The position numbers were made by a program, and so were the translations under genes. Positions 4,940 through 54,544 of a stretch of 64,000 bases of DNA are shown in pieces. The notes beneath the pieces were generated by a model that saw nothing but the letters and a program-made list of their open reading frames with translations, did no database searches and was not told where the DNA came from. Location of the stretch: positions 62,001 through 126,000 of the forward strand of contig DASXVS010000024.1 of NCBI GenBank assembly GCA_036504095.1, given 5' to 3'. How positions within the stretch are numbered: position 1 is the stretch's first letter; each line of letters opens with the position of its first letter. This stretch comes from Armatimonadota bacterium (GTDB lineage Bacteria; Armatimonadota; DTGP01; JAKQQT01).

Positions 4940-6004
4940 TCAAGCCATTCGTCCAATTGCGCCCTTGCGTCCCGAAATGGAACTGAACGCGTAGGTATCC
5001 TTGCCGCGTCTCTTGGCGCGGTACATCGCCGAGTCGGCGTCAAACAGGAGCGTCTCCGCTGTAGCGCCATCGTAGGGGTAGACCGCAATCCCGATGCTTG
5101 CGGAGATAGCCATGCCGCACGCGTTGCACGATCGCACCGCCGCGAGCAGTTTCCGGGCGATCATATCGATGTTCTCCGCGTCGCGAAGGTCGGGACAGAC
5201 GATAGCGAATTCGTCGCCCCCCATCCGTGCCACCGTGTCGCTCCTGCGGAGCGAACTCTGCAGGGCGAGCGCGACGTCCTGCAACAGCCGGTCGCCGGCC
5301 GGGTGGCCGTGCGTGTCATTGACCGCCTTGAACCCATCCAGGTCCAGGAACATCACCGCCAGCGTCTCGTGGTGCCGCACGGCGCGGCGAAGCGCATACT
5401 CGAGGCGATCGTTGAACAGGAAGCGTCCGGGGAGGTCCGTGAGGGCGTCGTGGTGGGCCATGTGCAGGATCGTGTGTTCAGCAGCACGAAGCTGCTGCAC
5501 CGTTTCGGCGAGAGCCCGGGCGTGGCGCCTCAGTTCCAGGTGAGTGACCACCTGCTGGGCCAGGCCCATGAGGGCATCGCACTGCCTCGTATCCAGGGTC
5601 CGAGGCACCGTATCCATCACACCCAACGCGCCGATGTGGTATGCGTCCGGCGTCGTGAGCGGCGCGCCGGCGTAAAACCGGACCTGCGGTGAGTAAGCTC
5701 CGGCAATGCGCGCGGTGGCTTCATCCCGAAGAGCGTCTTCCACGCTCAGGAACCGCCCCTCTCGCACGACCAGGGTGCAGAAGGAAGCCTCCCGCGTGTG
5801 CGGTGCACGGGCCAGCCCGACGCTGGACCCGAGGCGCCACCCATCCCCATCAACGAGGCTCACCAACGCCATCGGCGTGCTGCAAACGGTCGCCGCGAGG
5901 CGCGTCAGCGCTCCGAAGTCATCGTTGGCCACGGTATCGAGGATATCGTAGCGAAGCAGGGCCTGCTGGCGGCCGCTCTCATCGATAGGTAAGACACAAG
6001 TCAT
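4940..6004 (-). CDS. GAF-domain diguanylate cyclase (GGDEF)
   Basis: Makes cyclic di-GMP from two GTP. 354 residues. Residues about 25-155 form a GAF sensor domain (CSTPMALVSLVDGDGW; FYAGAPL), followed by a short coiled coil (160-180) and a GGDEF domain with the intact active-site motif GGDEF at 262-266. An allosteric inhibitory I-site RxxD (RRSD, 253-256) stands at the normal distance upstream, so product inhibition is expected. No membrane segment or signal peptide, so the protein is soluble. No EAL or HD-GYP domain is fused. The activating ligand of the GAF domain is unknown. Confidence 0.93.
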   Translation of the reverse strand: MTCVLPIDESGRQQALLRYDILDTVANDDFGALTRLAATVCSTPMALVSLVDGDGWRLGSSVGLARAPHTREASFCTLVVREGRFLSVEDALRDEATARIAGAYSPQVRFYAGAPLTTPDAYHIGALGVMDTVPRTLDTRQCDALMGLAQQVVTHLELRRHARALAETVQQLRAAEHTILHMAHHDALTDLPGRFLFNDRLEYALRRAVRHHETLAVMFLDLDGFKAVNDTHGHPAGDRLLQDVALALQSSLRRSDTVARMGGDEFAIVCPDLRDAENIDMIARKLLAAVRSCNACGMAISASIGIAVYPYDGATAETLLFDADSAMYRAKRRGKDTYAFSSISGRKGAIGRMA

Positions 6005-53064: not shown

Positions 53065-53418
53065 CTACTTGCGCTTGGTGTAGCCGTCGATGCGCCACGC
53101 CTGCATAGCTTCGTGAGACTTGGTCCGAACGGTCCACACCCGCACTCGCTCGCCATTGGAAAGGTCGTGAATGGAAACCTTGCGTCCGTCCTCCGTGATG
53201 GTTGCCTTCATCGGCACTTCCAGGACAGGATTCTCGCCATTGGCGAAGCGGACGCGAATGTTACGGTTAGTAGCTGTGGGCTTGCGGACGATGACTCCCC
53301 AGCGCCCCGCGGGGCCGGTGCCGTGCTTGACGGTGTGCGCGGGCGTTCTCGCCAGCGTCGGGGCCACCGATATGCTGATCACCGTTGCAATGGCCATTAT
53401 GGCCGATTTGAAGCTCAT
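53065..53418 (-). CDS. Small secreted beta-barrel-like protein
   Basis: 117 residues with signal peptide ending TLA. The mature protein is one beta-rich unit: GRWGVIVRKPTATNRNIRVRFANGENPVLEVPMKATITEDGRKVSIHDLSNGERVRVWTV. The order (G-turn, IRVRF strand, GRKVSIHDL, GERVRVW) matches each unit of the neighbouring 53519 protein, so the two are probably paralogues by duplication. Function unknown. Confidence 0.7.
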   Translation of the reverse strand: MSFKSAIMAIATVISISVAPTLARTPAHTVKHGTGPAGRWGVIVRKPTATNRNIRVRFANGENPVLEVPMKATITEDGRKVSIHDLSNGERVRVWTVRTKSHEAMQAWRIDGYTKRK

Positions 53419-53518: not shown

Positions 53519-54238
53519 TCACCGAACGGTCACAGAGGCCGCGAATATGTCGTCGCCGTCCCTGCGGCCTTCCACGATCACGTAATCGCCGTTTTCCAGA
53601 TCGCGCAGGACGATAAGCCCCCGGGACGTGCGTATCTCCGCGCGGTTAACGCGAACGATCACGCGGCGTCCGTCAACATCGATGCGGAGGATGCTCCCAC
53701 GGGAGTCGATACTGTTCACGCGGCCGCGGACGGTGACCTGCCGGCCGGCAGGCGCGCGATCGAGGCGGCCGGCACCTTCGAGTACGTCTATTCGCAACCC
53801 CGTGAGGTCACCTTCGATGGAGTACCGTTCCAGGCGGATGCGGACCAACTCGTCGCGGCGTAATTCGTGAACCGAAATCGGGCGGCCGTATCGCCTCACG
53901 GCGACGTTGCGCGGCGCATACACACTTCGTTCCTCACCGTTGTCGAGGAGCACCTTGAGCGTACGCCCAAATGCGCCGGTGCTTTCGGTGATGCGCCCGG
54001 ACACGAGCCGTGTGCCGCGGTCATACAGCGGGGCATTGTCGTCGCCCTGACGGTACGTTGGGACACGGGTGTAGCCGTACGGATCGTCGTCGTATGATCG
54101 CGAAGGCGACCGGTAGGCGGGCTCGCGAGGGGGGCGAGCGCCGTCGGTCTCCGACCGATAGTCCTGCGCGATGGCGCCGCCAGCCGAGACCAGCCCGACT
54201 AACGCAGCGATAGCAACGCGCAAAGGGCCTGGCTTCAT
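53519..54238 (-). CDS. Secreted protein with two OB-like (DUF5666-like) units
   Basis: About 239 residues from ATG 54238, with signal peptide ending GGAIAQ. Residues 20-75 are polar and Tyr/Arg/Asp-rich. Two beta units follow: VSGRITESTGAFGRTLKVLLDNG...RPISVHELRRDELVRIRL and VRGRVNSIDSRGSILRIDVDGRRVIVRVN...SRGLIVLRDLENGDYVIVEG. They resemble DUF5666-type OB-fold repeats. The start overlaps the stop of a 21-codon ORF (54235-54300), so translation may be coupled. Function unknown. Confidence 0.72.
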   Translation of the reverse strand: MKPGPLRVAIAALVGLVSAGGAIAQDYRSETDGARPPREPAYRSPSRSYDDDPYGYTRVPTYRQGDDNAPLYDRGTRLVSGRITESTGAFGRTLKVLLDNGEERSVYAPRNVAVRRYGRPISVHELRRDELVRIRLERYSIEGDLTGLRIDVLEGAGRLDRAPAGRQVTVRGRVNSIDSRGSILRIDVDGRRVIVRVNRAEIRTSRGLIVLRDLENGDYVIVEGRRDGDDIFAASVTVR

Positions 54239-54300
54239 CTCGCGCCTCCCGGGAGAATCACCCTGGCGGCCTCGTGTCCGGCCTCCCTGAGTTTGTTCAT
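54235..54300 (-). CDS. 21-residue leader ORF upstream of the secreted OB-like protein
   Basis: ATG 54300 is preceded at 5 bp by a strong GGAGGTGA ribosome binding site. It encodes MNKLREAGHEAARVILPGGA-R and stops with TGA at 54235-54237, which overlaps the ATG of the next gene (ATGA). The last codons include GGGAGG, which acts as ribosome binding site for that gene. No stalling motif is evident, though PGG is close to the end. It has the layout of a translationally coupled leader peptide. Confidence 0.6.
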   Translation of the reverse strand: MNKLREAGHEAARVILPGGAR

Positions 54301-54544
54301 CTTGCTCACCTCCACCGGTCCAGGGACGCCCAAGTCCTGCGGCAAACCCCTTCCTGCATGCTATCATGCGTTTCCAGGTGCGATGGCGACCACATAGCGG
54401 ATCCAGCGGGCATCCGCGCTCGATATGGCCGCTCGCAAGGAACCGTTTCCGAAGAAGCACGGTTTTGCTTTGGAAGGCGGCGCTTTCACAAGATACGCGT
54501 GTAAGACAATATCACAAACTTGACAGGCACGGACGGCAGGAACA
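54301..54544. other. Divergent regulatory region between the leader ORF and lon
   Basis: 244 bp with no ORF I can support. It must hold the promoters of lon (plus) and of the leader/secreted gene (minus). TTGACA occurs at 54520-54525, but it is too near the lon ATG (54545) to be its -35. No CIRCE or HAIR-like repeat is seen. Confidence 0.3.

Follow-up and report, generated by a model that had tools for sequence, protein, structure and literature searches.

A 21-codon open reading frame as a probable translationally coupled leader of a secreted DUF5666-like protein gene in Armatimonadota

The locus and its features

The window, meaning the whole 64,000-nucleotide stretch of an Armatimonadota genome that was analysed (GenBank assembly GCA_036504095.1, contig DASXVS010000024.1), carries on its minus strand a short predicted open reading frame, here called the leader ORF, and, overlapping its stop codon, the start of a gene for a secreted-looking protein of 239 amino acids. 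The features, given by position in the window, are as follows:

54306-54313, minus strand: SD1, GGAGGTGA, the ribosome binding site of the leader ORF, identified from the sequence as a complement of the 16S rRNA 3' end (duplex −15.2 kcal/mol)
54235-54300, minus strand: leader ORF of 21 sense codons plus TGA, a predicted ORF read from the sequence, with the predicted peptide MNKLREAGHEAARVILPGGAR
54245-54250, minus strand: SD2, GGGAGG, the ribosome binding site of the secreted-protein gene, identified from the sequence inside the last codons of the leader ORF (duplex −10.3 kcal/mol)
54235-54238, minus strand: ATGA stop/start overlap, read from the sequence, in which the TGA of the leader ORF is joined with the ATG of the next gene
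53519-54238, minus strand: gene following the leader ORF; its 239-amino-acid product begins with what looks by eye like a signal peptide and contains DUF5666/OB-like repeats
53065-53418, minus strand: next gene, for a secreted-looking protein of 117 amino acids in which this repeat domain recurs (29.6 % identity by tblastn, E 7.8e-5)

Read directly, the leader ORF starts with the ATG at 54300-54298 and stops with the TGA at 54237-54235. SD1 is separated from the start codon by 5 nt and, because the 16S rRNA 3' end of the same genome reads GGATCACCTCCTTTCT, is a perfect 8-nt complement of it. The distance from SD2 to the ATG of the downstream gene (54238-54236) is 6 nt. The initial annotation had described a 21-codon ORF at 54235-54300, and these coordinates coincide exactly with the ORF, whose strand, left unnamed there, is minus. 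Its further claims, of a perfect ribosome binding site, of an ATGA overlap with the next gene and of that gene's ribosome binding site in the last codons of the leader, agree with the reading given here. Two marks by which a coupled upstream ORF (uORF) is recognised, a stop codon that shares ATGA with the start codon of the following ORF and a short-ORF start supported by an SD sequence, were both found, the latter, on sequence alone, as a perfect 8-nt SD at 5 nt. The anatomy of strong SD1, short ORF, SD2 within the last codons and ATGA overlap is thus present in the DNA.

The start of the downstream gene is backed by its own SD and by the signal-like N-terminus of the product. In the description of this product as a "secreted OB-like protein", the OB-like element corresponds to sub-threshold Pfam matches; DUF5666 (PF18914) scored 17.9 bits, below the Pfam gathering cut-off of 27, whereas three of the four relatives scanned matched DUF5666 above the cut-off. 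The AlphaFold model was too poor for a fold search, since its mean pLDDT was 43.1. The gene at 53065-53418 is probably a tandem paralogue of the gene at 53519-54238 and possibly belongs to the same operon. A single terminator-like site was found past this second gene, at 53017-53005, one being observed against a chance mean of 1.6, and no such site was found between the leader ORF and its gene. The same scan returned no sigma-70-type promoter.

Ribosome binding site strength, coding signal and conservation

The strength of SD1 was compared with a simple, uncurated set of 336 genes, defined as stop-to-stop frames of 450 nt or more, each with the start of best SD, taken from the window and 20 further stretches of the same genome (464 kb). 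The 5th percentile of duplex energy at these gene starts was −12.1 kcal/mol, as against −15.2 kcal/mol for SD1, and GGAGGTGA preceded only 2 of the 336 chosen starts. Eight upstream short-ORF starts at −9 kcal/mol or stronger were present in the 464-kb sample, and the leader ORF was the sole overlapping or near-adjacent short ORF at −12 kcal/mol or stronger. When the upstream regions were dinucleotide-shuffled, 2.09 ATGA-type cases per run were expected on average at −9 kcal/mol (4 observed) and 0.01 at −15 kcal/mol (1 observed, reached in 1 of 100 sample-wide runs), the −15 kcal/mol threshold having been chosen post hoc, once the value of the leader had been seen. Shuffling the upstream region of this gene (n = 5000) gave 5 cases with ATGA overlap at −15 kcal/mol, 79 at −12 and 570 at −9. 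Judged by the counts at −9 and −15 kcal/mol, weak leader-like cases are background and the leader ORF at 54235-54300 is not.

In the whole genome GGAGGTGA followed after 2-9 nt by ATG was counted 31 times and the reversed pattern 5 times, an excess suggesting that such strong-SD ATGs are mostly real starts. ORFs of at most 60 codons began at seven of the 30 of these loci that were read (the leader ORF, L065, L070, L072, L081, L083 and L088), and the leader ORF was the only one of the 30 with an ATGA at a probable gene start. The 10-codon ORF of L083 also ends in ATGA; this overlap looks accidental, because its ATG has a poor SD (−1.7) and sits within a frame that is open for 265 codons upstream.

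Codon usage neither supports nor excludes translation of the leader ORF. A score at least as high was obtained by 81 % of real 20-codon pieces, but also by 33.4 % of unassigned stretches, 40 % of antisense pieces and 9 % of off-frame pieces when the controls were free of stops. An apparently favourable signal, in which 1.9 % of off-frame pieces scored as high, was dropped: it arose because those pieces contained stops, and it vanished with stop-free controls.

A search of the phylum's 290 other genomes yielded no ortholog of the secreted-protein gene. Nine of the 291 genomes, this one included, matched the secreted protein, the eight others distantly (28-39 % identity over partial length). A protein scan of genome contigs confirmed no ortholog; the one other genome of the same family gave no match to the protein and the one other of the same class weak matches only. 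The nearest Lon, at 73 % identity, indicates Armatimonadota as the phylum. Synteny with lon was considered and set aside, as the same-family genome G001 carries other genes upstream of lon. A tblastn match was present at nine of ten homolog loci (all except L005), and L006 had no start within its stretch. None of the eight loci with a usable start had a comparable leader ahead of the homolog, and weak upstream frames ended at the homolog start in two of them (L003: 8 codons, GTG, −9.5; L007: 90 codons, GTG, −10.0). The peptide was also considered as a conserved small protein and rejected as such: matches at E ≤ 1 occurred in 30 of the 290 other genomes, the best at 0.109, which is at or below chance level, and within its own genome the peptide was not found elsewhere at E ≤ 10. 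A literature search on Armatimonadetes and leader peptides returned nothing related.

Coupling to the downstream gene and other explanations

The 21-codon ORF is, in our judgement, probably a natural bicistronic leader, or coupled uORF, of the gene for the secreted DUF5666-like protein. From the sequence we infer that it is translated and that its translation is coupled to the gene; the leader is well formed and probably functional, and the peptide sequence itself is probably immaterial. Ribosomes would load at the strong and comparatively accessible SD1 and, in translating the leader ORF, would unfold the RNA at and near SD2. Having reached the TGA, they could slip one nucleotide backwards and begin again at the ATG that overlaps it; alternatively, SD2 may be left open for a new 30S subunit. 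The output would be the secreted DUF5666-like protein. The downstream gene could also initiate without the leader, since SD2 alone is good (−10.3 kcal/mol), and as both ORFs have an SD, uncoupled initiation can contribute as well.

Predicted opening costs, ranked against up to 120 of the sampled genes drawn at random, were 16.9 kcal/mol for the start region of the gene, just over the 75th percentile (16.7), and 10.1 kcal/mol for the leader start, just under the 25th percentile (10.4). A leader that assists the gene would be expected to give a contrast of this sort, but the modelled difference is modest. When a ribosome was modelled on the start or middle of the leader ORF, the unpaired probability of SD2 was the same or lower, i.e. 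SD2 was equally or more paired (0.39 to 0.40/0.41; 0.32 to 0.25/0.19; 0.17 to 0.17).

The nearest described case, and by analogy the closest tested analogue, is ORF27, the leader of iraD in E. coli (PMC5574718), a 27-amino-acid ORF which likewise has its own SD and a stop over the start codon of the gene, and whose gene start is predicted to be structured. The peptide, the gene and the phylum differ, and for iraD the account describes coupling and CsrA repression via the leader as experimentally shown and the SD-sequestering structure as mapped, whereas the present case is read from sequence. Short out-of-frame ORFs joined to the next gene by NTGA are also described in mycobacteria, as RTGA-coupled small ORFs (PMC4633059) and as uPPE2-PPE2 (PMC11260477), where the placement can persist while the sequence of the small protein does not. 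The RTGA set is described on leaderless transcripts, unlike the present pair of SD-bearing ORFs, and PPE2 of M. tuberculosis is described as being without an SD, its uORF lying under a B12 riboswitch, whereas two SDs and no Rfam element are found here. The ORF-11/ORF-18 of class 1 integrons (PMC8876359) resemble the leader as SD-bearing short ORFs; their translation is reported to boost that of the gene that follows, and amino-acid changes in ORF-11 to matter little; they differ in serving cassettes without a start region, and ORF-11 is described as usually ending in TAG, with no ATGA. In bicistronic expression designs, as reviewed in PMC12548453, a short ORF similarly delivers ribosomes and cancels repressive structure, but there it is engineered. 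In the work of Huber et al. (PMC6728339) 13 of 14 tested pairs are given as strictly coupled, with an SD dependence ranging from none to essential; Saito et al. (PMC7538156) is cited beside it on the mechanism of coupling. The arrangement is thus of a known kind, here in Armatimonadota, and opens no new question.

A chance origin of the ORF is unlikely; in that reading SD2 alone would start the gene, and the upstream SD-like site and the open frame would be a coincidence of GC-rich DNA. ATGA starts are common (80 of the 336 sampled genes), weak leader-like ORFs are about as frequent as shuffling predicts (at −9 kcal/mol, 4 ATGA-type cases for 2.09 expected), codon usage is uninformative, the peptide is unconserved and at least one other GGAGGTGA-ATG of the genome, that of L083, opens an accidental-looking 10-codon ATGA ORF, all of which would be compatible with chance. 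Against it, the combination of a −15.2 kcal/mol SD, 5-nt spacing and exact overlap was reproduced in only 5 of 5000 shuffles for the gene and 1 of 100 runs for the sample. Regulation of the iraD type, in which an RNA-binding protein such as CsrA would act on GGA motifs around SD1 and silence both ORFs, is improbable, even though the layout is like that of iraD ORF27, the genome encodes CsrA (PF02599, E 7.2e-23) and 7 GGA motifs lie between −120 and +3 of the gene, compared with a mean of 2.8 and as many in 3.6 % of the 336 genes. Any strong SD includes GGA, the core A(N)GGA is counted 3 times, a number reached by 14.6 % of genes, and no such core lies between −30 and +10 of the leader start. 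CsrA control stays a lead because the region is GGA-rich and CsrA is present, but the A(N)GGA cores are not unusual; that the ORF is a CsrA-controlled leader of the iraD kind in Armatimonadota, a putative switch setting the DUF5666-like protein by carbon or growth state via the leader ORF alone, is about equally improbable.

The initial annotation had proposed translational coupling or leader-peptide control. Coupling fits the anatomy and has tested precedents of the same layout in iraD ORF27, uPPE2-PPE2 and ATGA pairs; strict leader-peptide control found no such backing. Attenuation or arrest of the classical kind, in which stalling on the leader would sense a metabolite, a drug or the state of secretion, is very improbable; all that speaks for it is that a short ORF lies ahead of a gene. 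The stretch from leader to gene is without a terminator-like site, the leader region has no Rfam match and folds no more stably than shuffled sequence (MFE z +1.06), the 21 residues contain no run of a single amino acid and the peptide was not found in the 290 other phylum genomes. We know of no arrest motif that could be recognised in the peptide. Because 21 residues remain within the ribosome exit tunnel, sensing of secretion by the leader is unlikely. If the ORF is translated, it would be a clean natural example of a two-SD coupled leader in a phylum that has received little study, and could serve directly as a part for bicistronic expression. It would also suggest that ORFs this short, which gene sets easily miss, can be of consequence for the gene that follows.

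Similar layouts in the genome and the phylum

Two other short ORFs of the same genome lie close before a gene. At L072 (contig C37) a 48-codon ORF with the SD GGAGGTGA stops 2 nt short of a 451-codon ORF (SD −11.3) and is possibly another case of a short ORF with a strong SD and coupling to a gene, though the two do not overlap. At L029 (contig C24) an 18-codon ORF at 5891-5947, MAIVSSSPDFLSHWGVPL, has GTGGAGG upstream and a GTGA at the next start, that of a gene for a secreted-looking esterase-like protein (PF03629); as a candidate coupled leader it is less strong, at a level that shuffled sequence is expected to yield.

The phylum was searched with a strict pattern consisting of GGAGGT, 7 nt, ATG, 30-60 nt, GGAGG, 4-9 nt and ATGA. 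Thirty-two matches were found in 27 of the 291 genomes, this one included, against one for the reversed pattern, a loose control as it does not keep start-codon statistics. ATGA leaders were present at four of the 30 loci read, namely 54235-54300 (21 codons), L095 (23), L101 (22) and L117 (20), and their peptides are unrelated; at 15 of the others both ATGs lie in one frame and at 11 the first ORF ends elsewhere. The distribution suggests that a generic device for delivering ribosomes is used sporadically, rather than that a regulatory peptide is conserved.

The ORF of L101, from another genome of the phylum, has the SD AAGGAGGTGAG, and its ATGA overlaps the start of a Cas5d gene whose SD is AAAGGAGG; here the two-SD leader design recurs ahead of a CRISPR gene. 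At L098, L105, L106, L108, L109 and L111 two in-frame SD-ATG sites lie 16-25 codons apart at the start of genes with signal-like N-termini, and these may be alternative starts whose products carry or lack an extension at the N-terminus.
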